DNA from: Cytidiella melzeri
Taxonomy: Eukaryota > Basidiomycota > Agaricomycetes > Polyporales > Irpicaceae
Assembly (NCBI GenBank): GCA_022592445.1
Contig: JABYQR010000188.1
Coordinates: 1 to 64,000 of the forward strand
DNA length: 64,000 nucleotides
Direction of reading: 5' to 3'
Shown here one piece after another: positions 10,987-51,752 of the stretch. The translations under genes were made by a program, and so were the position numbers. The notes under the pieces are model-generated. The model ran no database searches, was not told where the DNA came from, and was given only the letters and a program-made list of their open reading frames with translations. Numbering within the stretch: position 1 is the stretch's first letter; each line of letters opens with the position of its first letter.

Positions 10987-11004
10987 CATCAGGAAATCCG
11001 TAAT
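10987..11004 (+). repeat. Left terminal inverted repeat of Plavaka-1
   Basis: CATCAGGAAATCCGTAAT matches the reverse complement of 17283-17300 with one mismatch. A perfect hairpin, CCAGGAT-AATC-ATCCTGG, follows at 11013-11030. Confidence 0.88.
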
Positions 11005-11169
11005 TTCCTACTCCAGGATAATCATCCTGGAATATCGCGATTAGCTCGAATACTTGAGAATAGAGAGAATACCTCAAATTATCCAATTGGTAGCAAAAGT
11101 ATTTGCGGAGCTTGCGAGGTAGTGGAAAATATGACAAGAGTACCTACTATTATCCGGGATAAAAGTACA

Positions 11170-14100
11170 TCAATATAAAGTGCGATACATGAATTTACTA
11201 CTGAAGGGATTAATGTAAAAAGTCCGGCATTTATCGAGTACATTGAAGCTCGTCCACTCTGTGGGAGCTGATGCACCAAACCTTGGGAATAGATGGACAC
11301 TTTGACGGATGTCCTTGACAGGCACAATGCTGCAGATTGGATCGCCGCGCTCGTCAACGAGGCGTGAAATCTTGTATAGACGATGGTTGGGTTCCGGTTG
11401 AGATCCAGGCTTGGTATACCATTCAACATACGCAAGGTGGGTGGGAACGGAATGCTCGTGCGGGAACAGAATCGAACGTGCCGCTTTGGGCAGCGAGAAC
11501 ACAACTCGGACTCGTCCAACATGATAACCTGGATAAGAAATGAGTATCAGAAGCTGAACCAGAGCTTCAGCAGCGCACCTGTGATTCCTGTAATACCACC
11601 TGAACCCTCGTTGACGAGAGCCGTATCAAACCGGCCTGGAACCTCTTTCTGACGTGAATCCGTTCGGATTGGCTGAGCGTGTATGGAGTCGGCAGTCTTA
11701 AACTTGAGCGTGAGAGGATCCTGCTGTACGAACTTGATGCGATGCCATACGCTGACCTTGCGGAATGGTAGGTGGATGTTCCAAATGGCCTCCTCAAGCC
11801 GCGCGCGACTAATCCCAGGTTCGTTTGTTAGTGTTATGAAGCGTGCAAGCGCCTCTCTGAAGAACCGTGCCCCATACTTTGTCACCACATGCTCTACAGT
11901 CACACCCATGACAGATGGATGCTTTGCAAGGTGAAGACGCCGGCCGAGATCCAATCCTGGTGGTGACCACTTCAACGATCGGGGTTCAGGCGGAGCGCCG
12001 CATTGAACGAGCCTCCACTCGACAAACTGGGCATGTCGATGCATTTTCTCGCGGCGCTCCAGCCACTTAGTCATCTGCGTGAACTCGTCCTTCCGGTTTG
12101 TTGCTCGGTAGGCGTCCTTGGTGAAGTCAATGTGCAATCGCTCGGTGTACTCAGTGTTGAAATTATCCATAGTGCCGAAAAGCCGGATTGACTGTGAATA
12201 GTGCAACGCGAAGTGGAGCTTGGGAAGGTTGAAGCCTTCACGGATGCCGAGGTCAATGAAAACCTGCTTATCGGCGTGGAATCGAGCGAGCGCCTCGTCA
12301 AGCAGTGCTAGAGTGTCGTCGGTATGGATTGGATACTGTGCCAAATACAAAAAATCAAGAATGGCGCGCACGCAACGGACGACAGGGGCGGGCGAAATGG
12401 TTGACTCGAGAGGTGGCATATCGAGGACCAAAGCGAGTAAGATGCGGCAGAGTTGATCATGTTCGTGGCCAGTCACCTTCGAGAGTGTGCTGATTCCATT
12501 CCCAAAGATTTGGATGTGGTGATTGGGGGCAAGCGACGACAGCGAGCATCAATTTCCGCCGCACCGTAGACCTCGATCAGCCATGCTACAAGGTGCTTGA
12601 TGATGCCTTGGTAGAGTTGATGAAGCACGTCAGGCGTGATCGAACGAAAAATGTGTGTATATGGCAGGTTTATCCAGAATGGGTCGATGACGGGTTTTAT
12701 ACCAGCTTCTGCGCATGACTTGAGGAAGTCCTCGGGACAAGCGTCGAACGAATCCAATATGTCGAGGATGGCGGTGAGGTCTCGTAAGTCAGCGGCGATT
12801 TCTGGAGCGTGATCTCCGAGGTTTTTGTGCGAAATCTTACAACAGGCGCACTTTCCTGTATAGCCCAACGTCACCAGGATTTGCTCGGGATAGTCACCTA
12901 AAAAACAAGCGAATATCGGATGAGCTCGATAGGTGGTGCCATTTCCGGTTACCACGCTCAATCCTGAGATACCGGTGCTCTCGAGAGGTTGCAGGACCTT
13001 CTTCATACAAGCATGGTAGAGGTTTGCAATCATCCGTCGTCGTGCTGCTTTGTTACTAACGCGCTCCAGCTTTGTCGTTGGCAGATATGCAAGCAAAATG
13101 TAGGTGCGGGAGGATGGTTTTCGACGGATTTCCTTTGGAATGTTCCCGATGGTCATGTACACAGGGTATGCGGTCTTGTTGCGGAACAAGGTAAGCTGTG
13201 TTTTATCGCTTGAAATAATGATAGGAATGATTGTTGCCCCAGGTTTTTTGCACTCCACTTCTTCCTAAATCACCCTCAGCCCAAACTTGAAAGTCGTGCA
13301 AAACGACAGCTGACTTACCTGGGTTGCCCACCACCACCTGCCAGTGTGCATGTCGTGATACATACGCTGGGTTTTCCGAGCATCTGTGTAGTGTTTTTCA
13401 GGGGCGAATACAAGGTATGGTGTGAAGTCGGGATCTCCAAATATGGCTCTAACACACGCGATGATGTCTCGATAGAAGACCTCGCAGACTTCGTTACCAA
13501 TCAAGACCTCGTGGCAAACGAAGCGTGGGAGCCCAGGCAGCCTCTTGTCGACTATCTCGTTCAGCTCATCCGCCGTATAGAACGACAAACCGAGGTGTTC
13601 AGGGACCTATGTATCTTGTAAGATTGATTCGCTACTACAATTCAAAGCCCGAAGTCCCACTCACTTCAGGTATTTGCAGGAGCTCTGTCAGTGCCATAGA
13701 GCCAGGGCCTCGAAGCTTTGCCCATCGTGCTAACTCCCAATCAATACGCAATGAAAATGGAGCATTAGGGTTGTTTGCTGTGGGTATCCCGCTCGCATAC
13801 ATATCGTTCTGTGATCCTGACATCCCGCTGGGTTTTCCTGCTGCACCAGGAAATGTCACAACGTGGGGTGTGTACCGCAATTGCCGCTCTGCCCCCTCTC
13901 GCTGAACTTGTGCTGTGCGCACATTAGCGTCATCCTCTGCAGACCTATCCGGCTGCGCCTGGGTTCCTTCGAGCGGATGTGCTAACCGTTGCGGCTCCAA
14001 TGTAACACACTCATCCTCGCCACCTGACTCCTCATCCGTCTCTACAAAATCTCCTAGACCAACCTCCGAGTCATCGCTATCATCCTCCTCCATCTCGATA

Positions 14101-14444
14101 TCACCTTCATTTAGGAGATCGTAGTCGCCCAGAGCATCGCCAGCTGGGTCGATTCCAAGCGCAAATTGTTCGGAGTCGGATGCGGAGTCGGTGTCGTCCT
14201 TGTCCACAGCATGCCCGAAGATGATTTTCGGTAGCAATCCTGATTCATCGTTGCTCGGGTCATCGTCGCTTGAAAGCACATCGGAATTGCTCGTGTCTGA
14301 TTGGAAGTCGCTCTTGTGTTGTTCTGATGACGTCGTATGGGCCTTCCAGTAACGACGACAAAGTAGATCCTTCGTAAGCCGCTTGTGATGCTTGAGGCCG
14401 CTTTTACTGAAGACTGAGCAGCATGCAGGACAAGTTGAAGGCAT
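11170..14444 (-). pseudogene. Plavaka-type transposase, frameshifted
   Basis: Exons on the minus strand are 14444-13665, 13606-13319, 13264-11579 and 11528-11170, with GT-AG introns of about 50-58 bp. The N-terminus has a C2H2-like finger (CPACC...HHKR) and an acidic linker. The core has the segments typical of Plavaka transposases: IIISSDKTQL, YPVYMTIGNIPK, TPDVLHQLYQGIIKH, and KLHFALHYSQSIRLFG followed by TERLHIDFTKDAYRATNRK. The C-terminal exon has YVEWY and WTSFNVLDKCRTFYINPF. Near 12521-12530 a run of five C (minus strand) marks a 1 bp lesion: the frame before it ends in TGA, and the matching frame continues with FGNGISTLSKVTG. This copy is probably inactive. The enzyme family cuts and joins transposon ends in the nucleus. 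Confidence 0.88.
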
Positions 14445-14699
14445 TTGTTCACTGAGTCAAAGGGTATTGCGAACAGGGAGCATGTACGTTGGGTTGAGTC
14501 GCGGTCCCGTAACTTATGTGTTTCAAATTCAAGCTTGAGTTGATATGCCCAGTTTCTTTAGAGGTTCTCTCAGTTTCCAACGGTCCTCAACGTGCTCCCA
14601 GTTCATCTGTTTCTCATTGTTTGCATCCATCCCTCCCTTTACTCATTCACACCTTAGACCACTCAAAATCGACACGAACAGACCTCAGCAGCATCGATC
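14445..14699. promoter_or_regulatory. Shared divergent promoter region of Plavaka-1
   Basis: 255 bp separate the two start codons, so both genes must share this control region. It contains pyrimidine tracts (around 14605-14640) leading to the DUF6532-like gene. No TATA box is obvious. Confidence 0.6.
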
Positions 14700-16918
14700 A
14701 TGTCGAACCAAGCCCTAACTCCAGCGCAAAAGGCTCAAATCACAAAACAACGCAAGAAACTTGAAGAACAGGCGTATGCTGCTTGCCTCGAGGAGCAGGG
14801 TAGAGGTATCTCTCAAACCTTACTCATGTTCATATATTTGACTAACACGATACGCTTCAGGCGCTCAAACAACCAAGACGAAAGCACTCGATAACGCTGG
14901 TATGCCCTTTCTCAGTTACGATGCCACCATTTTACCTGGCATACTGACATCCATTTCAGTCTGGCGAGGAGCTGCACCAACGGGGCATGCTCCTACGCAA
15001 AAGCAAAGCACCAAAAAGCCAGCTCAGCAGCGTCGTCGGTTGCCGCCATCAATCGCAAGCTCTGGCGATTCTGACGAATATGTCTCTGAAGCTCCCCAGC
15101 CACCCAAGCGACCACGCTTAGTCAACACTGCTGAACGCCTCTTCGATGATGACAGCAATGTCGATCGGCCAGTGCCAAAACCTAGAAAGCGAAGCAAGCC
15201 GGCCATTGACGACGAGGATGCGGACATTGAGGAAGACTACCAGGATTATCACGGGCCAGGCGAAGACGATAGCGCTGACGAAGGTGCCAATAGCCAGCCA
15301 GAGGATCAAGATCTTATAGGTATTACTACAACGCAACTGCGTTCACAACTGCGTAACAAGGTATGACCTTTTTGTTGATGATGTGCTCTATCTGACATGG
15401 AAGTATCTACAGGTACCACACCTCGAGGCCGAGGGGCCCAATACCGAACGAAGCCCATCGCCCGGGATCAATATCCCAGATGTTGATCTTGAGATGACTA
15501 CCACAACGGAGTTCGAAGACTTCGACAACGCCAATCAAGATGATTGTGATGATGCAGCTGCACACGCAAACATGAGATCCAGGTCAGGTAAACGGTGTAA
15601 ACCCTCTGGCGGACATCGTGCCCAAGCTCGTCGCTCGGAGGTAAGAGGTCGTGCTGTTCTCAATCAGATACTAATGATGTACCAAATGAATCAGAAACCT
15701 ACATTCTCAGATGGAGCCAACGTTCTGAACACCAACTGCTATCCACAGCCCGACATGCAACCAAACACCACCTCTCAATCTTCCGCCATCTCAGGCGCGC
15801 ACTCGAGCACTGACACCAACTCGCCAAACTACGGTTGGCCAGTCGCCGCACACTATGTTGCGCCGCTGCCAAGCCTCCCTGTCTCGCTCAAGGTCCAGCC
15901 ATCACTGCTTCAGCAAATCATACGTACCGCGATTTGTTCGGCTACTGGTGATTACCTGTTCAAGACGGCGTATCCATCTGACAAGAACCATTGGAAGGGT
16001 CTTCGCACCATTCTTCGCCGATGCGCAACCCGCCTCGAACTCAATGAATATGCTGAACGCTTCGAGAAAGATGTTGCTTTCAGAGAAGATATCGCCCAAA
16101 TTGTGAGTGGTTCACCCTGCTGTCTATCTGTTTTCTCATATGCTGCACAGCTGGTTGCTTGCTTTGCTAATTGCCGTGGCGATGTCAAATCTAATGCATC
16201 CACATGCGCCGCTGGGTACTATAGCCTTCTCCCTGGCGAGGAATGTAAGGACCGCGTCAAGGATCTAACCGAATCTTATACGTATATTTTCCCTGAAGAG
16301 GTGAGTCATCAAATAGGAACTTAGATATGATATGAGATTAACGGGCTTAACATTCACTCACAGGCTGGTGTCATGAAGCGGAATAAACCGTTCAAGCACC
16401 CCTGCATCATCAAGGTCATCACAAAGTCCTTCTTCAAAAGTGGCCGTGGCGGTCGCAGCTTGCTTGCTGACAAGCATAGCAAGCTATTCTCGTCAAGCTG
16501 CGAAGAAGGGCCGAAGAGGGATGAGCTGGAATTGCCCATCCCTATTGTTGCTTTAGCGGCTACTGCGGTACGATGGGTTTCCTTTTATGTGGCGCACCAT
16601 TACTAACATATTCCTTTGAAGGTCCACTGCGCTCTACTTGAGTGGAAGACCGGCGAGCACAGCAAGCTCTCGTTCCACGGCGACACCTATCAGCCAGTTT
16701 ACAAACGCCACGTCAAGGTTCTTGAAGACATTCGAAACGATCATGCCAAGTATCACCGGATGATGGCTGACTTGTACAAGACAGTTTCATACGTCCTCTT
16801 TTGTCGTTTCTGCTGATCAACAATTAACTCATCCAACTCTTCCTGTAGGCGCGGTAAGAACACGGCTGGTGAAGTCAATACAGCGGCTCTTGTGGATCCT
16901 GCCGCTATGGAGGAGTGA
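14700..16918 (+). CDS. DUF6532-like protein encoded by Plavaka-1
   Basis: Probable exons are 14700-14805, 14861-14899, 14960-15360, 15413-15640, 15695-16102, 16151-16300, 16364-16567 and 16622-~16773, with a last short exon ending at TGA 16916-16918; the last donor is uncertain. The N-terminus is helical and charged. A long acidic, basic and Pro-rich linker follows, with KRPR and KPRKRSK patches that could serve as nuclear localisation signals. The C-terminal half matches the basidiomycete DUF6532 pattern: FKHPCIIKVITKSFF, then PIPIVALAATAV, then ALLEWKTGE and MMADLYK. The function of DUF6532 is not known. Its place inside the transposon, back to back with the transposase, suggests a role in transposition or its control. 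Confidence 0.75.
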
Positions 16919-17282
16919 TCGTGTCAAACAGACTCAGTACTGTAGTCCGCACAAAGTAGCATAGCCATGTTAATGAATACAAACCTCCGCTCATCACAAA
17001 TTCTTGTCACTGAAAGCCTCGAGTTCTGTGCATCAATTTCATAGTTTATCCTTCATCTCGCACAACCCACCCACTCATTGGGCTTAAGATAGCATATATT
17101 ATCAACATTCTGTGAGTAAATATCCACAGAATATCTGGAAATATTGTCACACGAGTAAGAGGCAATTTATTCTAGGCTACTTTGATAACTTGCAATATTC
17201 TCACTACTCTGTATACTCCACATAAACAAGGATATTAATAGGTAATAACAGCTATCAAAGACAAATTCTCCCATAGTATCAG
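16919..17282. other. Right subterminal region of Plavaka-1
   Basis: AT-rich non-coding DNA between the DUF6532-like gene and the terminal repeat. It contains an inverted repeat, ATTCTGTG (17107-17114) with CACAGAAT (17125-17132). GAGAATA-type motifs, read on the inward strand, resemble those inside the left end. Such regions in related elements bind transposase, which is inference here. Confidence 0.5.
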
Positions 17283-17300
17283 ATTACGGATTCCCTGATG
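17283..17300 (-). repeat. Right terminal inverted repeat of Plavaka-1
   Basis: ATTACGGATTCCCTGATG; its reverse complement equals the left end apart from one base. The similarity weakens beyond 18 bp. Confidence 0.88.
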
Positions 17301-17728
17301 AGATCGCCCAGGCTCATTGCAGAAAGCGCAAACGGACCACAACCGACAACGACGACAACGAGAAACTGGAAGAAGAAGCAGATCCTGCCGTTTCCTCTTC
17401 TTTTGCGCACTTTAAAAATGCAAAGACAACCAGAGAAAACGACAAGAAAGAGGACGGGGACGTCAAGATGCTGTTGTCCGCAACAACTTTGTCCGAGGAA
17501 CCGATGGCTGTCATCGCCCCCTCTCAACCTTCTTCCGCAGCACAGCCCGCACAGGGCCTATCTCGCCGACCTACACCGGAAGACGTCGACGAATCCGACC
17601 GTGTAAACATCAGCGTGTCAAAGGCGTTTCCAGAGGTCCGCGGTCACATGTCGTACCTCACGTTTGCGGTGTTCTTCCTGCCGTCAATGACCAGCAGTGC
17701 GAGTGAGGCAAAGGTCAGCACTGCCCCC
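17301..17728 (+). pseudogene. TRM61-like C-terminal fragment, piece 2
   Basis: The frame beginning IAQAHCRKRKRTTTDN runs through an acidic and Ser-rich linker to VRGHMSYLTFAVFFLP. That last block resembles the conserved C-terminal strand of TRM61/Gcd14, the catalytic subunit of the tRNA m1A58 methyltransferase. The N-terminal Rossmann methyltransferase domain is not in this window. The frame is cut at 17728 by the copia LTR, whose first bases supply an artificial TAA stop. It would continue in frame at 34057. Confidence 0.6.
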
Positions 17729-18157
17729 TAATGACGAGTTGAGAGAACTAGTCACTTAGGCAAGGGTGGATGCGCTGTCGTAAACCCACTGCAGACTGTA
17801 GGGACCTAGTACACACGGAGACGAGTTAATCCAGGTGCGAAGATGAGAGCACAATGATGAATATAGAATGTACCTAGTACACACGGAGACGAGTTAACTA
17901 GGTAACAGGCATATGAGCATACAACATAACGCAAGAGCAATGGGGGGAATACTCACTCCAGGTGCGAAGATGAGAGCACAATGGAGGAGTAGAGAACCAG
18001 GGTGAAAGGGTTATATACTACAAGGAAGCTGGCAACGAGGCAGTGTCCGCGTGATGAAACAAAAGATGCAATCATACTACAAAGGAGTCATGAGACAGGA
18101 GACAAAAGAGTGTCTGATAGGGGCGAAGTCCATGAGTAGCGCCGCAAAAGTCCATTA
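17729..18157 (-). repeat. 3' LTR of the copia element
   Basis: Its ends are TAATG...CATTA in inverted orientation. Two modules are duplicated inside it: CCTAGTACACACGGAGACGA and CCAGGTGCGAAGATGAGAGC each occur twice. The last bases of pol and its TAA stop lie at the junction (18155-18157), with a purine tract just upstream on the minus strand. Confidence 0.92.
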
Positions 18158-21100
18158 CTCCCCCTCGGCGAGACGATACTGGACGAGTCCAAGAGCCTTG
18201 CAATGTCGAGCGTGAACATCATGAGGAAGTGGCTTTGTAAACATGTCAGCAGGATTATCGGTTCCAGGGATTCGAATCAGTTCGACGAGGCCTTCGTTGA
18301 AGCATTCGTGTACTGCGTGCGCCTTGACTCGGGTATGTTTTGAGCGGTGTTTGACATTTGGAGATTTTGAAGCGTCGACAGCACTCTTGTTGTCGCAATA
18401 AAGCGTGATAGGAAGGTTGAGAGGGATGTCAATTTGGTCTGCCAAGTCATTCAGCCATTTGAGTTGTTTGCAGGCTTCATGTGCTGCGTAGTACTCAGAG
18501 TTGAAGGTGGATTTGGCAACGGACTGCTGCTTGCGAGATGACCAGCATACAGCTCCATTGCCGAGGAAGAAGGCCCAGCCTGAGGTTGAGAGAGAGTTGT
18601 CGGTGTCGCTGACAAAATCAGTGTCGGTGTATCCAACAAGTTGGTCTTCTCGAGTGTCGCTGTGGCCTAGACAGAGTCGGAGGGAGGATGTGCCACGGAG
18701 GTAGCAAAGGACGTGTTTTGCAGCCTTGAGATGAGACTGCGTGGGGTTTGACTGATATTGACAAAGCCGAGCGACTACAAAAGCAATATCAGGGCGAGTA
18801 CCGAGCATGGCATACATAAGGGAGCCAAGAAGACTGCGGTATTCATGAATGAGTTTTGGATCGCATTGTGAAGGATCCTCTTCGTTCTTCTCCAACTTGA
18901 TACCTGTTGGGAGAGGTGTTGACGCAGGATTTGTGTCCTTGTGTCCGAAGCGCTTGAGAACATTGTTGATGTATACCTCCTGGTCCAGGTATATGCGGCG
19001 GCTCCCCCTATCCCTAGTGATGCGGATAGCGAGATAGTGCTTGAGTTCTCCCAAGTCCTTGAGTTCGAAGTGCAAGCGGAGCGCGGTCTTTGTTTCCTTC
19101 AGCAGAGCGATGCTGTTGCCCATCATGGTAAGATCGTCGACGTAAACAATGAGAATTTTGAGGTCTCCCCCTCGTCGACAAACAAAAATAGAGACGTCAC
19201 CAGTGTCATGACAGGTGAATCCAAGTTGTTCGAGGCATGCCTTTAGCGTGAGGAACCATTGGCGTCCTGCTTGCTTGAGGCCATAGATTGCTTTCCGAAG
19301 GCGACATACTTTGCCTTTGGCCACCACGAAGCCTTCAGGTTGCTCCATATAAACCTCCTCGTCCAAAGATCCGTTTAAATACGCCTGATGGAAGTTGATT
19401 TGGTGGATTTCCCAGTCTAGAGTGGCTGCCAGGGCGACAAGATATTGCCAAGATTCCAGACGGGCGACAGGAGCGAAGGTGTCTTTGTAGTCGATGCCTT
19501 GAATTTGCTCAAATCCTTTAGCTACCAGCTGTGCCTTGTAACGGTCAACATTGCCGTCCTTGTCGAGTTTGAGCTTGTATACCCATTTACTCTTGATCGC
19601 CTTGCGACCTTGAGGTAAATCGACGAGGTCCCACGTTCCTGAGTCCTGGAGACCTTTGAATTCAGTCTCCATTGCCGTGTACCAGTCATCCTTGTCCTCA
19701 GAACCCATAGCCTGTCTGTATGAATGAGGCTCCCCCTGAGGTGTTACAGCTGCCGCTAGGACTAAGTCAGCTTCGTCTGCGAGGACTGCTGCTGCTCGGT
19801 TTTTGCGGTTGTAAGGGAGCTTGTTGCCTCGAGATTGTGTAGCCTGTTGAACATCATCCTCACTTGCTGCCTGCCAGATGGAATCCAGTCGCTTCTGTTC
19901 GCGTGTAGTGCGGCGGGGAAGCTGATGAGCAGGATTCGATATGGGCAGATAGTCGTGTGCTGAGGGACGATTGGGATTTGGTTCAACTTTGGGTGATTCT
20001 ACAACTCGAGACGACAAAGGGGTTGGTCTGGACGGTGAGGATGAGAATTCAGTCTTCGGCGTGAAGAACTGCTCTGGTGCCTTTCCTTTGCCCTGCGAGA
20101 TGCTAGGGTATGGTGAAGGTGTGGCTGGCGTGGATGGTTGAGGAGTGGAAGAGGGGCGCGGTATCTGTGACGGCATCTACGAGGATGGTGTCCGTTCCAT
20201 ACGAACGTCCGTAGATGGTGCGCTGAGAGGAGGCAGTTGCTGAGTGGTAGGCACATGTGGCGTGATAGTAGCCGGCTGCAGAGAGGGCGTGTGAAAGGAT
20301 GCAGTTTCAAGTTTGAAGTAAGTGGGCGGTGTTGGTTGAGGTGCGCTCGAACGCGGGGGTGTAGAGTTAGGACGGTTAGGAAAGACTGTTTTGTCGAATA
20401 CTACGTCTGTACTCGCAACAATCTTATGGGTATGTTTGTCCCAGAGGCGGTAACCTTTAGAACCCGCTTCATACCCAACAAAGACAAGAGGTTGAGCGTT
20501 AGGCTCCAACTTCCGTCGATGATCCTTGTGGATGAGGCGATAGGCCAGGCAGCCAAACACACGAAAGTAGGATACATCCGGTGGTGCGCCTGTGAGTCTC
20601 TCGTATGGTGTCCTCCAGTTCAAGGACTTCTTAGGAGCCCGATTACGAACGTGCACAGCTGTCTTCACAGCTTCCTCCCAGAATCCCTTGGACAACCCTG
20701 CAGCATGGAGCATGGCTTTCGCAGATTCGACAATCGTACGGTTGTAGCGCTCAGCTTTTCCATTCTGTTGGGGTGTGTCAGAGGTTGTGCGTTGGTGGAA
20801 TATGCCAAGATTCTTCAGCCGTTGAATGAATCTCTTCGACTGGTATTCTCCCCCCCTGTCGGAGCGGAGGATCTTGATGTCGCAACCAAACTGTGTCTTG
20901 ACCATAGCGCGGAAGTCCTCGAACCTCTGTTCTTGCTTGTCTTTGTGTTTAAGAAAGTACACCCAGACGTCGTCGGTGCAGTCATCAATGTACGTGAGCA
21001 TGTACAGATTTCCGCCGTTGATAGACGCGGTCTGCATGGGACCGGCAAGATCAGTGTGAATGAGGTCGAATGGTCGAGATGCACGAGGAGTGGAGGATGG

Positions 21101-22243
21101 AGGGAAGGGTCGCCTATGCTGCTTTCCCAAAGCACAGCCCTCGCAGACGTGTTTGGAACGAGGGGCCTCGCTGAGAGCCAGTCCCTTGACAGGAGAGTCT
21201 TCAGAACGTAGCTTTTGAAGGGCTTCGAAGTTGAGATGACCGAAGCGTTGGTGAACGAGGTCAATGGGAGCAGTGGCAGAGTGCGTGGAGGAGGCGACGT
21301 TTGGAGTTGAAATGGTGAGTTCCAACCAATACTGGCCGCCCCTGAGAGAACCTAAGCCGTAGGTCTTGTTTTCTTTATAGATCCGAGCTCCCCCGTCTGA
21401 AAAGACAGTGGAGAATCCCTTGGAATTAAGGCAGGAGATAGCAATCATGCGTTCAGCGATGCTCGGGCAGTACAAGACGTTGTCAAGCTGCACTGTGAGC
21501 TGCCTTCCGTCGACGGTTGTAGTGCCAGACACGCGACCTGAACCAAGTGTAGACATCGTAGTCTTAGGCGAGTTTGCCAGCGTAGCGAAGTGCGGCGTAG
21601 CAAATGCCTTGTACTCAGTGAAGTCGTTGATGTCGTTGGTAATGTGTTTCATGCAGCCGGAATCAAGCATCCATGGCATAGAGCCAGCGGTGTACCAGTA
21701 AACAGCGGCGTTGGAGGCTTTGGACTCGGGGTCCTCAGCAGAAACTACATGTACAGCGGCGGAACCATTCGACGTAGAACCAGACGACTCCTTCCCCTTT
21801 CCTTTCTCCTTCTCCTCCTTGATGCCCTTGGAGGCAGCAGCCTTCTTCCTACACTCCCCCTCAACGTGACCCGTGTACCCACAGAAGTTGCACTTCTTCT
21901 TTTTCTTCTTGTTGGCGTTCAAAGCCGAAGAAGCCTGCTTGCCTGCCCGGACAGCAGAGACGTCTGACGATCCCTTGCGCGAAGCCTCGTCGATGAGGCG
22001 CGAGCGGATGTCGTCGTACTTGAGGTCCTTGGGGGCGGTGACAGCGAGGATGGGTTCAACAATGTTGCCGAAGGAGTCAGGGATGACCGAGAGGAGGCCG
22101 AAGATCTTGAGCAGCTCCTTGTTGTCGAGGATGCCAGAGTCACTGACCTCCTTCCATAAGCGACCACGTTCCTCAATCTGCTCAACAAACGGGTGAGAGC
22201 CGTCCATCTGAGAGAGGAAGTACTGCTTGAATTTGAGGAAGGC
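18155..22243 (-). pseudogene. Copia Gag-Pol, major part
   Basis: Read from 22243 downwards, this continues the gag begun at 33501. Domains in order: zinc knuckle CNFC...GH...C, protease WMLDSG, and integrase with an HxxxH-CxxC finger (HQRFGH...CEGC). Next come integrase Asp (HTDLAGP), Asp (SDRGGEY) and Glu (NGKAER), reverse transcriptase (AFLNGSLDEE-like AYLNGS, VYVDDL), and RNase H (YTDTDF, CDNKSA). One in-frame TAG at 20177-20179 splits pol between integrase and reverse transcriptase. RNase H has YTDTDFVSD where YTDADxAGD is usual. The element would make one polyprotein, cut by its own protease. Confidence 0.9.
22239..22243. repeat. Target-site duplication of the nested gypsy (left)
   Basis: AAGGC on the left matches AAGGC at 33125-33129. 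Joining the two sides keeps the copia gag reading frame open (LSAF followed by LKFKQYF). Confidence 0.93.
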
Positions 22244-41504: not shown

Positions 41505-42461
41505 GGTCTTTGCGGGTCTGTCTTTGAAATGCTATCGTGACCTTTTGCTGTATGTTTTCGCGACTATCCCATTATCATCCTGTCCAGGCTGCACTCTGCA
41601 CCTCACTGAATACAACTAGCGCATGGAGTATTGGTCATTTTTTATCGTCACGCTCGCTGGCTGCATACTAAAGACGTCACTGGCGCGATTGTTAAGATAT
41701 ACAGTGGACAGCAGCAGAAGGCTTTTCTTTCAGCGCACTACCGTTGCAGCTTTTCATGGGTCACCCTCGTCCAGTTACCCTATGAACGTCGCTGACATTT
41801 TTTGTCATGAAATGCGACCTGACCTCCCTCGCGATCCTTTTCAGGAATGGCCTCATCTAGCGTTTCCTGTTTTGATGCAGTCATCAGCCCGAAAAGAAGG
41901 ACAATAGCGAACACACGCAGGCATGAGTGCGCGCACTGTCGGTTGGTGATGTGTTACGGCATCGCTCTGGAGGTGTTTGAGTAAGTTAATCTGACGGCAC
42001 CCATAGTGTCTGACTGGAGCGGTGGTTTTGTAATTCGCTCGAAGCTTGGAAGTCGCATAATTGAAAATTTTGGAGATAAATACTCTGCGGCTTTGCTCAC
42101 TTGCCTTTTGAGACAATCTCTTCGACTTGCTAGTGAGTACTGGAGTTTAAATAGCCTATATAGGCAAGCACAGCCGTGGTGGCGCATGCGTGTTACTTAT
42201 GGGCGCTCTTTCCAGGAAACAGACACAGTACCGCAAGCTACTGTGCTGTATTTTTATATCGAGATTCAGTCTGCTGTTCTAGTAACTCTCAGCTTAAGCT
42301 TGAAGCTGCGCAAGATTATTGCTCTCGAAATCTGGAGAAACTTCTACGATATCACGTGCCATCAGGAAGTAGCGTGCGTCATCCTGGCGTACGCGTACAA
42401 CTTTATTAGACTTTCAAAGGTACAACTGAGCTTTCCTTCTTCAACTCCCATCTCTCAGCAG
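41505..42461. other. Intergenic region with a possible promoter
   Basis: 957 bp with no convincing gene. A TTTAAATAGCCTATATAGG segment near 42146-42164 could be the core promoter of the next gene, about 300 bp upstream of its ATG. Confidence 0.4.
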
Positions 42462-44891
42462 ATGAGTAAAGTACAACTCTATGTCTACGATCTCAGCAAC
42501 GGCCTCGCGAGACAGCTCTCGAGACAGTTGACAGGCAGGCAAATCGACGGGGTCTGGTGAGCATACGCTTTCCTAATCATTCGGGGCTTCTGTGTTATTG
42601 ACATGAAGTACAGGCATACCTCTGTTGTTGTCTATGGCAAGGAGATCTTTTACGGACAAGGCATATCAATAACCGCACCAGGCCAATCACATGTACGTGT
42701 CATGACCCCTCCGAATGTAACATTCGTATTGATTTGCATGTCATTTCATAGCATGGCCAGCCGCTTCAAGTGGTGGATATGGGGGAGACAGCGATAGATG
42801 AGGCTACGTTCCATGAATTCTTGGACGAGATGAGAGAGCACTACACCGCCGACAAAGTGTGTATCGTAATCTATCGCTCTGTGTACCATAATTGACCTTA
42901 ATTGAAACTAAGTACCATCTGCTAGGTGTGTTCATCCAATCCAGCGACGTTGAATGGGCCCACTTACCACAATGATAGACTTCAACTGCAACTCGTTCAC
43001 TAATGATTGCATCGGTCTGCTCACTGGAGGTTCCATCCCTGACTGGATTAAGGGTAAGCCTTCTCATCGAACAAAGATGAAGATGATGTATCCAACATGA
43101 CATGTCACTAGATCTCCCTTCCGATATCTTATCAACGCCTTTCGGCGCAGCCTTACGCCCCACTATCGATGCTATGTTCCGTAGGCCGGTACCAGGCGCA
43201 CAGCCATCTGTTCCAGTCATCCAGCCACAGGCAGCGTCTGCCGCAGCAGCAGCATCACCCAACCCAGCTCTTGCATCTACACTCCTACAGGCCGTCGCTA
43301 ATCAAGCTTTTTCCTCGCAAAGTGCCACAGCGGCGACCAATGCTCTGTCAAATGGGCGATCATCAAACTCTTCGATCGCCACGGTGGCAGCACCGATACA
43401 CATTTGCACAAACACCGCGTCTTTCCACAATGTCTTGAGCACACATCGAGCTGTCATTGCGATGTTCACATCGCAGACTTGTCCTCCCTGTCGGATGATA
43501 GAACCTGTCTTCGAGAGGCTCGCGCACGAGCGAACACAAAATGCTGTGGTCGGTGGTGGTGGTGGCATAGCGTTTGTAAAGGTCGATTTAGGAGCTGGTA
43601 TGGCGAACACGGTTGCTGGGGAGTATGGTGTTCGCGTAACGCCGACGTTCCTGTTCTTCAAGGATGGTACCAAGGTAAGTTGTGGAATAGAGACATCACA
43701 GTTGCAATTTGATCCTTGTAATGTATAGGCGCACGAGATGAAGGGCGCGAATGCTGCAGATCTCCAGTCGCAGATCGACTTTCTTCTATGGGAAACATAT
43801 CCACGTGAGCATGCTATTATACAGGCCACAAGAATGGATGTGCTGACGACTGTGCAGCCCATCCGCATACTCAGAAGTCCATATCTGCCCTCGACTCTGT
43901 GTCAACCGATCCAATTCTGTTCACCCAAGTCCCCGCACTTGACACTGTCTTAGCGAAGCTGACATCTTTTATCGACAAGTCATCTTTACCGCCGACCTCC
44001 TCCCAGGCTACCAAGCACACACTAACAAATAAGATTGTTCCTTGGCTCAAGGCTCGCTTTCCTGTAATAAAGCCCACGAATGCAGTCAAGACACCACCTG
44101 CATCCAGTCAGCTACTCTCACATTGGACTGAAACGACTCGTGAGCTCTGTGCAGTACTCCCTCCTACGGAACTGTTCCCGCTAGTAGATATGTGGCGTCT
44201 TGCTCTCCTAGACGGATCAGTGGCAAACTACTGCACATCTAGTCCGAGGAGCACGACTGACCCAGTTCAACTCCTCCTAGTTCAAGGTGTGGCAAACATG
44301 GGTCAAGCCGTTCCAGCACGCAATTACACCTTGACATTACTACGGATGCTGTCGAACGTATTTTCTTCTCCTGCGCTAGCTTCGGCTATGGTGAAACGGA
44401 GAGCTCTCACGACCATCCTCGTCAACAATTTGCTACATGATGACGCGGTGGTCAGGACTGCTGCTGCGAGTTTGGGATTCAACGTCGCCGCTTTCGTGCA
44501 GAAGGAGAGGTTGGAGCAAGTGAGGCAGAAATACGGGCCGTTTGCGAAGTCGGAAGAAGATGGTGACTGGGAGGTGGAGATTGTTAGCGCTGTGATTGAG
44601 GCTATACAGAATGAGAAGGACAGTGAGGAAATAGGTGAGTGGTTGTGGCACGTGTATATATGTCATACTAGCTGATCGTCGTCTCTTGTAGTCCATCGCT
44701 TGGTGGCCTGCCTAGCATTTCTTCTGCGTTTCTCTCCGGTCCACGACTCGCACGTTGGGTCACTTCTGGAAGTCCTACAGGCGAAGGAGACACTGAAATC
44801 GAAGCTGAACAGTTCAGGGTTCTCGCCTAATGGTGTTAAGGGACCTGCTCTGCAAAAGCTGATCACGCAAGTAGCTGACCAGCTGTGCTGA
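42462..44891 (+). CDS. PPPDE peptidase-thioredoxin-PUL protein
   Basis: Nine exons: 42462-42556, 42614-42692, 42752-42856, 42913-42925, 42979-43053, 43112-43674, 43729-43804, 43858-44634, 44692-44891. They sum to 661 codons including the stop. The PPPDE (DeSI-like) domain comes first: catalytic His in WHTSVVVYG, catalytic Cys in DFNCNSFTNDC. The linker is Ala/Gln-rich. A thioredoxin fold has the active site CPPC in MFTSQTCPPCRMIEP, with cis-Pro in VRVTPTFLFFKDG. The PUL domain (armadillo-like helices) forms the C-terminal half. DeSI enzymes remove SUMO or act on ubiquitin, and PUL domains bind Cdc48/p97, so a cytosolic or nuclear ubiquitin/SUMO-linked redox role is likely inference. The fusion is known in fungi. 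The fourth exon is only 13 bp. Confidence 0.9.
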
Positions 44892-45105
44892 GAGCGGCGA
44901 TATGATTCGTTCATATTGATGCTGTAGTCGGCCGGCTGGCAGGCAGTAAATCACACCTCAGCAGTCGTGCAGCGTTATATACTTTCCTTCGCGTAACCGT
45001 ATGAATGTACTCTATAAACTTTATATTCAGACATTCAAAACTTTGTACATCATAGCCCATCCGCGCACGGCGTCGGCGCGTTCAACCACGATCTACTTGA
45101 GTGCA
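44892..45105. terminator. 3' ends between convergent units
   Basis: AT-rich sequence after the stop (TATAAACTTTATATTCAG near 45013) suits polyadenylation of the PUL gene. No gene seen. Confidence 0.35.
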
Positions 45106-45510
45106 TCATTCCTGCCAATGTCCATGCACCGAAGACGGCGTAGTACAGATTTCTGGTAGGTCTGTTCTTGTTTTCCAGGTATCTTCGTGGACTACAATAC
45201 CGGTATAGGTAGTGAGAATCGCTGCCAGGTCTTGGTGGCAGTGTCCCATTGGCACCAGGAGGGGTAGCGTGGGTACCGGTCTTCTCGCCTCTAAGAACTG
45301 AATCAGACGGTTGTTGTCATGCATTTTTGAAGTGTTCAGCTGCAGTTCGGCAAGCGACGGGAATAGTTGGACGTTGAGAGAGAGGAGGGCTAGCTAGGCG
45401 TCGATACCCTTGAAGAGGAGTTTCCATACACTCAGTGCCTCAAACATAGTAACTTGACCTTGTCATTCCCAATCATAATCATAGTGTACAGATACTTTGT
45501 GCCTGGAGCG
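45106..45510 (-). pseudogene. Unidentified gene, 3' part, split by Plavaka-2
   Basis: The minus strand encodes ALSVWKLLFKGIDA, a stop, then LALLSLNVQLFPSLAELQLN and LIQFLEARRPVPTLPLLVPMGHCHQDLAA, ending near 45106. The Leu-rich pattern resembles the C-terminus of fungal F-box/leucine-rich proteins, but I see no F-box. The segment nearest the transposon (APGTKYLYTMIMIGNDKVKLLCLRH) joins in frame to the piece beyond 51753 if the element is removed. Confidence 0.4.
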
Positions 45511-45845
45511 CATCAGGGAACAAGTCCGCCGCTACGGGAAGCTACGTAGCAGTTGCAACAGTCGTAGTTATCGTAGACAAGTACCCTATCCTGGAGCGCT
45601 ACGGATCACACCCCCAACTCCGTAGCACTCCGTACCATGTACTGTGTAGCACCGTAGCATTATTCCGTAGCATTGTGATTAAGTTGTCGCTGCTCCGTAG
45701 TACTGGTAATGTAGCTCCTGTAGCTCTCGTAATGCATGTTTCTGGCAGACAATTGGTATTCCATCGCGAACAAATCAATAACATTAGCTAAACTATGAAG
45801 TTATGGTACCCGACTGGTACCGGTTACTGGGGTATCCGTCAAAAT
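45511..45845. repeat. Left subterminal repeats of Plavaka-2
   Basis: The first 12 bp are the terminal inverted repeat. Up to about 45735 the motif CCGTAG/GTAGC or its complement recurs about a dozen times (for example near 45531, 45541, 45560, 45569, 45599, 45621, 45653, 45671, 45703, 45718). On the right side the motif is inverted, as GAGCTAC. Confidence 0.75.
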
Positions 45846-48167
45846 TTAGTTGCTGTCGTCCTCATCCACCCAATTGTCCAAGTCCTGCAGCGCGTTCTCC
45901 TTTGCAACGTCCGAAAGTCCCAGAGGCTTGTCTTGTTTGCGCTCGATGCCCCCGAGGCGGCTGAAAGGTATTGTGAGTTGTGAGACATGCATGTGTTGCA
46001 AACGACGATAAGCGGAACTCACAGGATTTTCTTGAACAGGCTATGGCGAATCTTTGTGGTGATGACGGGGCGTAGCTTGGCCCAGTCTCCGAGCTGGCCA
46101 AGGTGCTCTTTGACCACCTGACCGTAGGTGGTCTCACGGAACTCGGAGCCTTTTTGCTCCAGTCGCCCCGTTGCCCAGCGCATCAAACCAAAACGGACCT
46201 GTGTGTCTTATGTTATCAGCGACAACAGAAGGTTTGAATGATTCTTACATACCATGGCGAGCAACAGCGCGATTGTTGGAAGTGGGAGTGGATCAAATAA
46301 CGCGCTGAATTCGGCGCCAGGAGATGTGTCTCCGCGAAAGACCAGTTCTTGCAATGCGTGTCGAATGATCGATACCTGTGCCAGCCCTCGAGGGGGATCG
46401 AGTGTGAATTCCTGAATGTGATGAGCTTATGTACAAAACCTCGTAGCATTGAACGTACCTCGTAACAATACTGATTAGCGTCCTGAGCCTGTCCGATTGG
46501 CTGCAGTAGCCACGCCACCCGCTCTGCATTGGCTTTGGCGGTAGCGTCCTTTGATGTGTCAGTTTTGAGTCCGTATGTCTCCACTATCTTGCCGCAAATC
46601 TTGTCCCTGAGATGACCGCGAAAGCTTGAAGCACGACCGATAATCTGTTGGGGATCAGCAAGAGCTAACGAGAACTCATGAATACATACCACCAAATAGA
46701 TACCCCTGACTGCCTCGTCGTCAGGGGAACAGCTGCGCTCGACCTCTTCGCAGCTAATCTGGAACACACTTCTTGCCCAAGTGTGCTGCGTGTCGTGATC
46801 TGGAAATGCAGATTCAGTCAATACTTTCAGCTGGTAACATACGATAGCCCGCGATATGATTGTCGCGGTGATGCCGGTGTAATTGCTCTCTTTTGGTCTA
46901 CCGTTGGTCGGCGCGGAGCCACCTTTGTACTCGACAGAGCTGTAGGCTTGGGGCGCTACATCAGACGCAGTACGTGGCTGCTTACGCTGCCTTCCTGCGT
47001 GTTCGTTTGGAGAAGGCCTCACGTGGTGACGGCCACTGGCACCTGTTGACACCGAAGGCTGCGCTTGTGGTCGTCTTCTCACCTCCTGGGCAGCAACAAC
47101 CACAGCGCTGTCCACTCGATCCAAAGGTGACCCTGACCGGACTGAAGATGGAGCTCTTGAGGTAAGTGGAGATGATGCTGGTAAGGACACTTGACCGGAA
47201 GACTCGGAGTAGTGTGAGCGACGACGAGAGGGCAACTGAGAATGGCCATGAGAACTTGAGCGCAGCGGCGAGCGACCACGCGAGCCTGAGTGCAGCAGCA
47301 AGTGACTGCGAGAGCGCGACAATGAGCGCTGACGAGAGGGTGGTGCACAAGAGCGCAACAGTGAGCGCTGACAAGAGGATGGTGCACGAGAGCGTGACAG
47401 TGAGCGGTGTCGAGAGGATGGTGCACAAGAGCGCGACTGTGAGCGCTGAAGAGAGGGTGGTGCATGACAGCGCGACTGTGAGCGCTGACGAGAGGGTGGT
47501 GGCGAGAGCGACTCTGAGCGATTGTGGAGAAACAAAGGTGGTGTTGGTTTGGGATTGTTGACACGATGTTTCAGCTGCTTGAGTGGTTGGACCACGCTAA
47601 TAACGCCTTTCCACTGGAACTAGAGATCATGTAGTGAGTACTGTATCAACGGTGGTGGTGTCGCATCTGTACCTGGGACTCGTAGCCAATAATGTCGTTG
47701 TCTTCGTCTTCAGGTGGCCAGTCATCATCGCCACTGCCACAATTGAGCCCGTTGCTGTTCTCGCCATCTTCGTCGTTGCCTGCAGCGTTATCTGGCTGCT
47801 TGGTTGTTGATGTCGCTGCTCGTTGTTGCTTTCCTGCAGGTGAATCAACGAGAGGTAAGGATATTGTAGGTAATTATGATGTTCTCACCTCGCGTTTGTG
47901 CTCGCTGCAATGTCTTGTTCTCATTCTCGAGCTTCTTGAGTCGCTTGAGGAGCTCGCTGTGGTCTGCAAGTGTTCATAGTCAGCGAAGAGTTGCCCGTAG
48001 TGAGTCAGAGGGTCACCTATGTCAGCCTGCTTCTTGGATTTCTTGCGCTCTCTTCGAGAAGCAGAGCGCACCGGATTTGCTGGCTGTGGTTGCTGGGGAG
48101 TTTGTCCTGTGCCGGAGTCTGAGTCTGAGCCTGCTTTTTGTGCAGCAGCTTTTCGCTTTGCGGGCAT
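45846..48167 (-). CDS. DUF6532-like protein encoded by Plavaka-2
   Basis: At least seven exons, beginning MPAKRKAAAQKAG (48167); first exons 48167-48017, 47963-47889, 47833-47673 and from 47619. Stop TAA is at 45846-45848. A basic N-terminus leads to a coiled coil (HSELLKRLKKLENENKTLQRA) and an acidic linker (DDDWPPEDEDND). A tandem Arg-Ser repeat follows (about 11-residue units, APSSRQRSLSRS-like). The DUF6532-type core then has RGHLRDKICGKIVETYGL, SIIRHALQELVFRGD, EFSALFDPLPLPTIALLLAM and FGLMRWATGRL, ending VTTKI-like RHSLFKKIL and an acidic tail. It is oriented head-to-head with the transposase, as in Plavaka-1. The N-terminal halves of the two DUF6532-like proteins are unlike each other; the cores share motif order. 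Confidence 0.75.
47265..47530 (-). repeat. Coding minisatellite for Arg-Ser repeats
   Basis: Units of about 33 bp repeat about seven times inside the DUF6532-like gene of Plavaka-2 and encode variants of APSSRQRSLSRS. The phase is kept, so the repeat expands the protein without breaking it. Confidence 0.7.
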
Positions 48168-48328
48168 TGCTAGGAGAAGGACGACACCAGGAAGAGCTTG
48201 ACGTGGCAGTAGAGAGACACAGAGATGACGCGCATGAAGCGAACACGTACCCGGTAAAAAAAGCTTGAATCCCCACGGATCACCCCAAACGACTGTACCG
48301 CCAGGTCACAACTCACTTTTTGGTCTTC
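48168..48328. promoter_or_regulatory. Shared divergent promoter region of Plavaka-2
   Basis: 161 bp separate the two start codons. GTACCCGGTAAAAAAAGCTT near 48250 is the only AT-rich core. As in Plavaka-1, a single control region must serve both genes. Confidence 0.6.
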
Positions 48329-51300
48329 ATGTCTTCGACCAGCTTCCACAGATGCTCTTATTGCGGGTGTACGAAACCTACCGTTCAAGGAATCCGAGCG
48401 CACATGAAGCTCAGTAGCTCATGCCGAGATGCGTGGGAAGCAAAGCTAAACAGAAAACAATCGCTGTCAGTCTCGACCAACAATGATGAGGACTCTTTGC
48501 AACGTACCAGCTGTCGTCGTGAAGACACTGCACCCCACTCACCCAATGACCCCGACAACTCTAATACAGCGACAGAGCAGGCTTTTGAACCCTGTGCAGA
48601 GCAGGACCAAGCCGAGGAGGTTGTGGAGGAGGTATATGAGGCGGGGGGAATCCCAGTGAACCCGTTTATAGATGACCTTGACACGAGAAACGCAGGGGCA
48701 AAGCTGGGTCGAGGAGATAATCTATTCGCGAAGATAAACAAAGAGCAAATGAGTGAGGGGTCAAATGAAAACACACCGTGGGCCCCGTTCATCAATGGGG
48801 AAGAATGGGGATTGGTGCAGTGGCTGATGAGTAGTGGGTTGAGTCAATCCGAGATTGACAAGTATCTGAAGCTCGACATGGTGAGTCCTGCGTAAGACTT
48901 TGCTACAAGATTATTGAAAGGGACGTACAGGCACAAAATCGACCAGAGCTCTTGTTCAAAGATAAGCAAACGTTCCTGAACAAGATTGATAGCCTCCCTC
49001 GCGGTCCTGGATGGCAGTGCGAGATTTTTGAAGCAACAGGAGACGAATGTGATGAAGAAGGTAAGGAACATGTGGAAGTGTTTGAGCTATGGAAACGGGA
49101 CCCCGTTGAGTGTATCCGCGAGCTCTTGTCCAACCCGTCGTTTGCATGCCATATGAAATACGCACCTGAGCGCCGTTACGAGGACGAGTGGATGAAGAAG
49201 CCAATACTGAGTGAGATGTGGAGTGGGACGTGGTGGGAGAGCGTTCAGGTACGTCGCGGCACAAGTCCAGAATCAGAATACTCACGGTCATATAGAATCT
49301 GCTACCGCCAGGGGCAACAGTGGTCCCCGTGATCCTCGCATCTGATAAGACTCAATTATCAAACTTCAGCGGCGATAAATCCGCGTGGCCGGTGTACCTC
49401 ACCATTGGGAATATTGAGAAGGCCGTTCGCCGATCACCCTCGTATCATGCAACGGTCTTGCTAGGATATCTTCCGGTGTCGAAGATGGAATGTTTCTCGA
49501 AAAGCAAACGATTGTTAGCTACGTACCAACTTTTCCATGATTGCATGCGCTCCCTGTTAGCCCCGCTTATCAAGGCGGGGAAAGACGGTGTTGAGATGGT
49601 GTGCGCTGATGGCTTCCTTCGCAAAGTGTACCCGGTACTGGCGGCGTACATTGCGGACCATCCCGAGCAATGTCTTGTTGCTTGCTGCCAGCAAAACCAT
49701 TGCCCTCGGTGCCTTGTGAAACCTGAAAGACGAGGTCAGCCAGTCGAATCACCACTACGGAATCCAGCAGAAACGGCTTCAATGATCCGCGAAACCCTCC
49801 GGTCTGGTGGACAAAAACCGCGGGGTTTTGAAGAAGCCGGCCTGCAGGCGATCGACCCATTCTGGAAAAATCTTCCGTATTGCAATATATTCGCCTGCAT
49901 GACACCTGATCTCCTGCATCAGCTTCATAAAGGCATGTTCAAGGATCATACCGTCAAGTGGGCGACAGCGTGTGTTGATGGGAAGGAAGACGAAGTGGAC
50001 AGGCGATTCTGCACAATGCCAACCCATCCCGATCTCCGCCATTTCCATAAGGGCATCTCGTTGGTCTCGCAGTGGACGGGTAATGAATACAAGCATATGG
50101 AGAAGGTATTCCTCGGCGTAGTTGCGGGAAGTGCCGACACAGATGTGGTCAAGGCGGTGCGAGCCGTTTTGGACTTCATCAGTTATGCTCACTTCGAAAC
50201 ACATACCAACGATTTCCTCTCAGGTTTGAACGACGCCTGGACACGCTTTCACTCATACAAGCAGGTCTTCGTGCGGCTAGGAGTACGAAAAGACTTCAAC
50301 GGTATTCCAAAGCTCCATTCCATGACTCACTATCTTGAGTCCATCCGTCTTCTAGGGACCGCAGATGGATACAACTCCGAAGGGCCTGAACGGCTCCACA
50401 TTGACTTTGCCAAAGTTGGTTATCGTGCAAGCAATCGCAAGCAGTACATCCACCAGATGACTGTATGGCTCGATCGACAGGACGCTGTACGCCGGTTCGA
50501 AGCCTATCTCCGCTGGTTGAAACACGGCCGCGTTTCACAATTTCTTCGGACAGGAGAGGAGGAGGATGGGAATCATGATGAGGACGATGGTGAGAACATT
50601 CGCGCTGACCAGCCGGCGTTGGGAGCAGATGCCAGTGAAGGCATCTATACTATTGCGCGGAAGCCTACATTCCCCAACATAGTCAGGACGATAGTTGCCG
50701 AGTTCTGCGCACCGGATTTCGCTCAATGCCTGGAGGACTTTGTGACCAAGACACAGGGTGTTCCGAGTCATTCCTCGCAAGCACCAACAGTAAGTTCGGC
50801 TTCGTCGTTACACGCAGCAAAACACTCACACATCACAGACAACCCCACAGTCTCTGTCTTTCCTTTGCTCCATCAACAGCTACACTACATTCGTGGTTTA
50901 TAAACACTTCAAGAAGGCCTTGCCTCAAATGAGCCAAGTCTCGAAGAAACTCACCTCGGATTCAATACGCGCGTTTCCCGCTCGACTCGGAGCGACAGCA
51001 AGCACACTGCCTCGTCGTCTTTGTGCTCAGGCCGCACAATTCTCCACGGTGCTAGCCTTCAATGGCGCATATGGCGGTACCCGTCCTGATGATGGTACCA
51101 ACACCGGTTTGTATAATCCTATCGATGGTGAGTGGCTTCAATGTGTTCATGAATGTCGGGAACTCTCTAACGTATAGCAGGTCTGACCGTCGCACAAGTC
51201 CGAGTCATTTTTTGCCTTCCGGAAACTGTCAGCTATCTCAGCAAACATCCGCTTGCGTACGTCGAGTGGTTCACGCCGTTCCAACCGTACGGCGATATCA

Positions 51301-51560
51301 CCGGCATGTTTTCTGTTGCACCATCACAAAGAAATCGTCGTCGTCGCGTGTCGATCATCCCCATCACCGCTATCGTACGTTCTTGTCATCTTATACCTGT
51401 GTGGGGTCGTGCTGCCAACATTCACTGGACCTCGGAGAATGTACTGGAGCGGTGTACTCGTTTCTATGTCAATACTTACCTGCGACACACGGACTTTGTT
51501 TTATTTCGATTTCTTGTAGATAGATGGCGAAAAACTTGCAACACTTCATCAATTCTCTAA
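48329..51560 (+). CDS. Plavaka-type transposase, apparently intact
   Basis: Five exons: 48329-48880, 48931-49248, 49296-50789, 50839-51127, 51181-51560; 1,010 residues with no internal stop. N-terminal C2H2 finger (CSYCGCTKPTVQGIRAH), acidic linker, then GTWWESVQ. The core has the segments shared with Plavaka-1: VILASDKTQLSNFSGDKSAWPVY, LTIGNIEKAVRRSPS, CPRCLVKPE, TPDLLHQLHKGMFKDH, GIPKLHSMTHYLESIRLLG, and GPERLHIDFAKVGYRASNRK with conserved acidic residues. C-terminus: LAYVEWFTPF and WTSENVLERCTRFYVNTYL. Acidic residues in these blocks are likely metal ligands of an RNase H-like fold, by analogy. The start at 48329 is the first ATG before the zinc finger. Confidence 0.88.
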
Positions 51561-51752
51561 TAAATCATTCTTTGCATTTTCATGTTATTTACGCAACTAT
51601 GGGGCCCTACAGGTAGCTACAGAGAACAATGCCAAGCTACGTAGAGCTACAGAGAACAATGCCAAGCTACGTAGAGCTACCGCGCCAGATCAATGTCAAC
51701 TGGCGCTCCGTAGTACCGGACTTACTACGTGGTTATTCCCTGTTTCCTGATG
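51561..51752. repeat. Right subterminal repeats and end of Plavaka-2
   Basis: A 30 bp sequence starting AGAGAACAATGCCAAGC is perfectly repeated in tandem at 51621-51650 and 51651-51680. Each copy carries the palindrome CTACGTAG followed by AGCTAC. The terminal 12 bp (51741-51752) mirror the left end. Confidence 0.85.

Follow-up and report, generated by a model that had tools for sequence, protein, structure and literature searches.

The first 64,000 nucleotides of contig JABYQR010000188.1 of Cytidiella melzeri (Basidiomycota, Polyporales, Irpicaceae; assembly GCA_022592445.1), a stretch referred to as a whole as the window, contain two Plavaka transposons that each enclose a gene for a DUF6532 protein, and the question raised by this locus is what such a gene does inside a transposon. 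PF20149 (DUF6532) is curated as a domain of unknown function. In C. melzeri it is a standing second transposon gene, which evolves in step with the transposase. The common layout claimed for the two copies in a preliminary description of this DNA is borne out, as the PF18759 (transposase) and PF20149 genes diverge over 255 and 161 bp and lie inside CATCAGG termini. The features are given below in window coordinates; W1 and W2 denote the two elements, and loci elsewhere in the genome are cited by working labels (C99 and so on).

10987..17300, no strand: Plavaka element 1 (W1), with CATCAGG..CCTGATG ends and an AG/AG 2-bp target duplication
10987..11022, plus strand: terminal inverted repeat of element 1, transposase side, 36 nt, 78% complementary
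11547..14444, minus strand: Plavaka transposase gene 1, with PF18759, a C-terminal PF20722/DUF6830 and an N-terminal CxxC..H..C finger (by eye)
14445..14699, no strand: intergenic region of element 1, ATG to ATG, 255 bp, common to both genes
14700..16816, plus strand: DUF6532 partner gene 1, ~576 aa from a hand-built model of 8 exons, end of the last exon uncertain
17265..17300, minus strand: terminal inverted repeat of element 1, DUF6532 side, partner of the repeat at 10987..11022
45511..51752, no strand: Plavaka element 2 (W2), with ends CATCAGGGAACA..TGTTTCCTGATG and a CG/CG 2-bp target duplication
45846..48167, minus strand: DUF6532 partner gene 2, 650 aa from a hand-built model of 8 exons
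48168..48328, no strand: intergenic region of element 2, ATG to ATG, 161 bp, common to both genes
48329..51560, plus strand: Plavaka transposase gene 2, with PF18759 and an N-terminal CxxC..H..C finger (by eye), with approximate boundaries of the 3' exons

Both elements start with CATCAGG and end with CCTGATG. The PF18759 scores are 343.8 bits for transposase 1 and, on two separate exons, 315.2 and 92.5 bits for transposase 2, against a cut-off of 26.3. The CxxC..H..C finger opens the transposases of W1, W2, C200, C70 and C384 by eye; Pfam gives a weak zf-C2H2 hint only (E 0.033, W2), and several transposase relatives among the matches listed bear zinc-finger protein names. Blocks reading DKTQ, D[YH]PEQ..CxxC and ERLHIDF were recognized in both transposases by eye, without alignment to RAG1. 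The PlavakaB group is defined through its termini and target duplications of 2 or 3 bp (Kojima, 2025; PMC12730594, consulted in part), and it shares PF18759, CATCA..TGATG ends and 2-bp target duplications with the present elements. Such termini are found in W1, W2, C384 and C200, and all four have 2-bp target duplications (AG, CG, TG and TA, respectively). By these sequence features elements 1 and 2 are assigned to the two-gene PlavakaB transposons, within the CMCT clade of DDE transposases. The extra gene differs: in the consulted part of that paper it is, for a few families, a TET/JBP dioxygenase, and here it is DUF6532.

The splice sites of both partners were picked by hand, and the spliced products of 576 aa (partner 1) and 650 aa (partner 2) match PF20149 with 141 and 118 bits (cut-off 24). 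The domain lies on the C-terminal side in both, with residues 386-593 covering model positions 1-194 of 194 in one partner and residues 341-549 covering 6-194 in the other. Outside it the two proteins are as unlike as had been described: BLASTP returns a single significant segment (50 aa, 38%, within DUF6532), the N-terminal halves are unalignable, and the domains themselves are 22% identical. Partner 2 consists of an N-terminal leucine-rich, coiled-coil-looking stretch, Ser/Arg-rich 13-aa repeats and the C-terminal DUF6532; the Arg-Ser repeat noted earlier in one partner is encoded by a 39-bp tandem repeat at 47309-47503. The annotated relatives P0001 and P0002 seem to use another frame across this repeat region.

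The pairing was followed through the whole C. melzeri assembly (49.7 Mb, 731 contigs). PF18759 gave 129 exon matches, corresponding to at least 69 loci, and PF20149 gave 88 matches at no fewer than 56; both censuses are lower bounds, as PF18759 was scored on 123 of 207 candidates and some partners escape the six-frame PF20149 search (at C667, P0004 is present but gave no match). A DUF6532 match lies within 6.5 kb of 39 of the 69 Plavaka loci, and six more have one at 8-14 kb (C196, C354, C446, C527, C727, C91). Each of these 45 nearest pairs, all less than 15 kb apart, is divergent; the sole other nearest pair on one contig is convergent and 65 kb apart. When the 56 DUF6532 loci were placed at random, a mean of 1.14 and at most six fell within 6.5 kb of Plavaka (2000 trials), against the 39 observed, so that the enrichment beside transposases on which the preliminary description depended is present (39 of 56 loci, 1.1 expected). 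KDZ transposases served as a control: from 97 matches, 65 places were typed (a few of these 65 may be exons of one gene), and one had DUF6532 within 15 kb and none had Plavaka. Chance pairing in transposon-rich DNA is ruled out by this control together with the random placement; the association of Plavaka with DUF6532 in this genome is not due to chance.

For the 24 Plavaka loci with no Pfam DUF6532 match, the upstream DNA was read at 19, and also at C354; C333, C378, C637 (contig edges), C705 and C712 fell outside this reading. TBLASTN with known partners detected a divergent partner at 11 of the 19 (C177, C212, C243, C344, C351, C396, C423, C518, C635, C667, C692) and at C354 too, several of them matching over the N-terminal part only. 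At C414, C706 (at 72 kb) and C716, comparing translations with those of a paired relative gave weaker signs of a divergent partner. In sum, 59 of 69 Plavaka loci have a partner or remnants of one, each time divergent (39 + 6 + 11 clear + 3 weak). At C727 (L042), an insertion of several kb splits the DUF6532 gene, leaving domain pieces at local positions 1233-1406 and 6914-7560.

Elements delimited at both ends were obtained by searching the four window ends against the genome (E <= 1e-10) and pairing them. Counting the window copies themselves, family W1 has six (C99, C56 twice, C146, C38, C579) and family W2 seven (C99, C557, C90 twice, C446, C52, C81); C384 (15245-21543, TG/TG) and C200 (52143-58233, TA/TA) were delimited directly. 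The sequence of both genes lies between the ends in 15 of 15, some with insertions or a partial transposase, and the possibility that most intact elements lack DUF6532 fails in this genome. PF20149 matches occur between the ends in all 15 and PF18759 matches in 14. The remaining element, C52:92453-99657 (L030), has a partial transposase detected by TBLASTN only, close behind the DUF6532 gene, and resembles an internally deleted copy; the PF18759 match of C446 is fragmentary. Three of the elements (C579, C446 and the first C90 copy) span 10-16 kb and must therefore hold insertions, which accounts for the 10-kb gap of C446. Short two-ended copies devoid of genes were not seen in families W1 and W2. 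Unpaired ends remain at C550 (W1), at C184, C451, C501 and C523 (W2, DUF6532 side) and at C185, C356 and C614 (W2, transposase side); those of C501, C356 and C614 are lone ends of the element-2 type, on contigs where neither PF18759 nor PF20149 matched, and may be broken copies or short derivatives. A CATCAGG terminus stands just downstream of the DUF6532 gene at 22 of 30 DUF6532 loci inspected. At C56, two element-1-type copies (86728-93048 and 93311-99631) lie in opposite orientation, 262 bp apart.

The two genes largely share their history. Among the 59 paired loci, 14 elements with DNA of both genes were compared, over which identity ranges from 36 to 98% for the transposase and from 16 to 96% for DUF6532. 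The distances correlate with a Mantel r of 0.91 (n=14, p 5e-5; rank 0.65), which becomes 0.87 when near copies are removed (rank 0.51) and 0.74 with one element per family (n=9, p 3e-4; rank 0.50). The maximum-likelihood trees have 9 of 11 splits in common, the conflicting ones having support of 60 and 36 in the DUF6532 tree and 87 and 90 in the transposase tree. DUF6532 thus largely follows the transposase tree, as a congruence check proposed earlier had envisaged, and the pairing survives deep divergence in this genome.

The ratio of nonsynonymous to synonymous divergence (dN/dS) was determined between families, where dS is high (about 0.9-1.8) and the values are therefore rough: the W1 partner gives 0.14 against C128, C187 and C380 (523-525 codons; 2, 0 and 1 stops, respectively), and the W2 partner, compared with C346, gives 0.29 for the complete gene and 0.12 for its final 300 codons. 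The corresponding transposase values are 0.06 and 0.14; C322 was left out due to saturated dS. Recent copies yield ratios from 0.4 to 2.4, resting on very few changes, as expected of copies decaying after insertion. These ratios indicate purifying selection on the partner between families, and the earlier suggestion that the pairing outlived much divergence under selection agrees with them (identity down to 16%, between-family dN/dS 0.12-0.29). The proposal that DUF6532 proteins are transposase partners is partly supported: within C. melzeri it holds as regards a non-chance association, a single layout, largely matching trees and purifying selection. The reading frame of transposase 1 is interrupted near 12.5 kb (12473-12520). 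Element 1 and the related C187 copy (L006) have transposase frames that break at an identical PP motif, through which L003 and L007 read; this common break may reflect shared damage, recurrent change or assembly error.

Because DUF6532 keeps in step with the transposase, the protein probably helps the transposon to move. The explanation preferred here is that DUF6532 is a second, co-inherited Plavaka gene encoding a nuclear accessory protein of transposition; taken as a whole, it is judged to lie just on the probable side. Both genes would be expressed jointly from the common intergenic region. The transposase would handle the CATCAGG termini via its N-terminal zinc finger and catalytic core, and the DUF6532 protein would bind family-specific subterminal repeats (of the RTAG type in one clade) and/or the transposase, and would aid the pairing of the two ends, as TnpA does with TnpD in En/Spm. 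In CACTA elements the subterminal repeats are bound by TnpA, and En/Spm needs TnpA besides TnpD (PMC2613891, consulted in part). The two ends of element 2 are rich in RTAG:

45511..45760, plus strand: DUF6532-side end of element 2, with 10 inward and 4 outward subterminal RTAG per 250 bp
51503..51752, minus strand: transposase-side end of element 2, with 8 inward and 6 outward subterminal RTAG per 250 bp

Inward RTAG counts per 250 bp at the two ends are 10+8 in W2, 10+9 in C384 and 10+4 in C200. In 500 shuffles such counts were reached once at most, and they amount to 5-9 times the rate inside the elements. Outward-reading copies are fewer in W2 (4+6) and C384 (1+5). The DUF6532-side ends of two further lineages, C644 and C512b, have 12 RTAG each against a background of 1.7, and there are 10 at C446 (W2 family) and 8 at C196 (C200 family). 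The resemblance of these ends to those of CACTA elements suggests that DUF6532 may act in end binding or in the transpososome. By analogy, the repeats fit end binding, in which the reader protein may be either DUF6532 or the transposase finger. A perfect 30-bp tandem duplication at 51615-51674, in the transposase-side end of element 2, doubles the RTAG sites there.

The protein itself was examined by domain and structure searches. Pfam (E up to 1) found only PF20149 in the two spliced partners, and no TNP1, Ptta or Myb/SANT. AlphaFold2 modelled the DUF6532 domain (13 alignment rows) as mostly helical, with a predicted local distance difference test score (pLDDT) of 55.7 and a predicted template modelling score of 0.52; the full partner P0004 (16 rows) reached a pLDDT of 38. 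The best profile match among PDB sequences was TbRSP63 (E 0.0057), which was taken as noise. A more far-reaching proposal is that DUF6532 represents a new class of transpososome protein, mostly helical, which would have co-evolved with Plavaka transposases since before the sampled lineages split and would recognize subterminal RTAG-type repeats. This is possible but doubtful; if true, the DUF6532 genes of basidiomycetes would be mainly transposon genes and not host genes.

Several observations weigh against a role in transposition. With a zinc finger of its own, the transposase might bind the ends unaided, and the DUF6532 domain matches no known DNA-binding family (Pfam, PDB profile and Foldseek searches), has no Foldseek match in PDB or BFVD at E <= 0.001 and carries a net charge that is not strong (-2 to +10). 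The RTAG motif was chosen after looking at element ends. W1 shows no enrichment (3+3, a count attained in 379 of 500 shuffles), there are 5 in C187 and 4 in C322, both related to W1, and the inward direction is not general, the transposase-side end of C200 having 4 RTAG and 8 CTAY. To the roughness of the dN/dS values is added a ratio of 0.22 for the W1 partner against C317, a copy with 11 in-frame stops. Finally, no recognizable partner was found at 5 of the 19 loci read upstream (C19, C290, C550, C711 twice). C550 matches paired copies as far as the intergenic region, where another repeat starts; C290 is 99% identical to the paired C6 across 321 bp at the start of the transposase, beyond which the two part; and the two loci of C711 resemble halves of one transposase. 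Two of the five (C290 and C550) are visibly cut and two look like halves of one gene, which leaves C19.

Co-inheritance and selection would also be met by a protein that counters host silencing rather than acting in transposition. Such a function is proposed for TET/JBP genes of fungal transposons, including Plavaka, in the consulted part of one study (Kojima, 2025; PMC12730594), and an N-terminus evolving fast next to a slower domain would be in keeping with an arms race. However, TET/JBP genes are scattered over many transposon lineages according to the same text, whereas DUF6532 stands at 59 of 69 Plavaka loci, is rare near KDZ (1 of 65 places within 15 kb) and largely follows the transposase tree, which makes anti-silencing rather unlikely. 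Somewhat less likely again is that DUF6532 regulates the element, by binding the common intergenic region and controlling both genes or by repressing transposition. The divergent layout over 161-255 bp would suit a self-regulated pair, and in En/Spm, TnpA not only binds ends but also acts in regulation (PMC2613891, consulted in part), but regulation by itself leaves the RTAG end repeats of three elements unexplained.

Help in picking the target site, instead of binding to the ends, is very improbable: the duplications of four elements vary (AG, CG, TG, TA), nothing specific speaks for it, and no preference is visible in this small sample of four sites. The least credible alternative is a host gene family that was captured repeatedly or is preferred as a landing neighbour. 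It could draw on the 9 of 56 DUF6532 loci that lack a Plavaka piece (C451, C492, C512b, C534, C669, C723, C83, C184, C189). Two of these orphans, C184 and C189, lie near contig ends, and no transposase match was found in the 3-10 kb of DNA searched at each of C451, C512b, C669, C723, C83 and C184. A host family is nevertheless disfavoured because a single orientation is kept in 45 of 45 near pairs, the termini enclose the partner and the two trees agree for the most part; an element terminus also stands downstream of DUF6532 in the orphans C184, C451 and C512b.

If the preferred explanation, a co-inherited accessory protein of transposition, is correct, the closest parallel would be the CACTA element En/Spm. 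The elements have in common two proteins, short conserved termini and a faster-diverging second protein, and the RTAG repeats dense at the ends of three of the four elements examined may correspond to its family-specific subterminal repeats, TnpA-like proteins diverging far more than the transposase (PMC2613891, consulted in part). By contrast, TnpA arises by alternative splicing of one transcription unit, whereas here there are two divergent genes, and DUF6532 showed no homology to TnpA. The PIF/Harbinger elements named Nuwa also combine a transposase with a second, DNA-binding protein (PMC12730594, consulted in part), DNA binding being a proposed role for DUF6532 here; the second gene of Nuwa is of the Myb/SANT type, and neither partner has Myb/SANT by Pfam. 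With these findings DUF6532, which is annotated in basidiomycetes without a known function, gains a first functional context. A large group of DNA transposons is a two-gene system in one fungus at least, a possible fungal parallel to the plant TnpA/TnpD system, and lineage-specific DUF6532 expansions in gene counts may partly be transposon counts.

Beyond C. melzeri, adjacency was assessed in one species, Hohenbuehelia grisea, from locus tags. There, the transposase bears the tag HGRIS_001597 (84% over 771 aa) and the partner the next one, HGRIS_001598 (55% over 407 aa, the gene model departing beyond), both on one contig of 4308213 bases. Hohenbuehelia grisea belongs to the Agaricales. Compared with its C. 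melzeri counterpart, the element-1-type transposase in the pair P0022 / P0016 of this species shows 84% identity; among the 120 matches listed of 3185, the other named members of this group from outside Cytidiella have about 50-65%, and the metagenome protein P0020 has 84%. It is possible, judging from these identities, that an element-1-type transposon passed horizontally between the two orders. The transposase protein search, with 120 of 3185 matches listed, allows no rates to be derived. Searches with DUF6532 proteins returned 16 distinct proteins, 14 of them from C. melzeri, besides P0008 (Gloeopeniophorella convolvens) and P0016; one of these searches scored only the best 7992 word-sharing candidates, so that absence elsewhere carries no meaning. 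The transposase profile gave 38 pattern matches in viral contigs and 132 in bacterial and archaeal genome contigs, none confirmed in either set.

In literature searches no paper describing a link between DUF6532 and Plavaka was found, an earlier mention in the paper that named Plavaka being possible. A full-text search for DUF6532 did not bring up Kojima (2025; PMC12730594), a result that leaves its supplementary sequences aside. The only paper that turned up for DUF6532 or PF20149 lists PF20149 next to PF18759 among the additional domains of two Ganoderma species, with no link drawn in its consulted part (PMC8955403). Adjoining element 1 in the window, a 673-aa open frame at 18155-20176 (minus strand) resembles by eye a Copia-type reverse transcriptase/RNase H.

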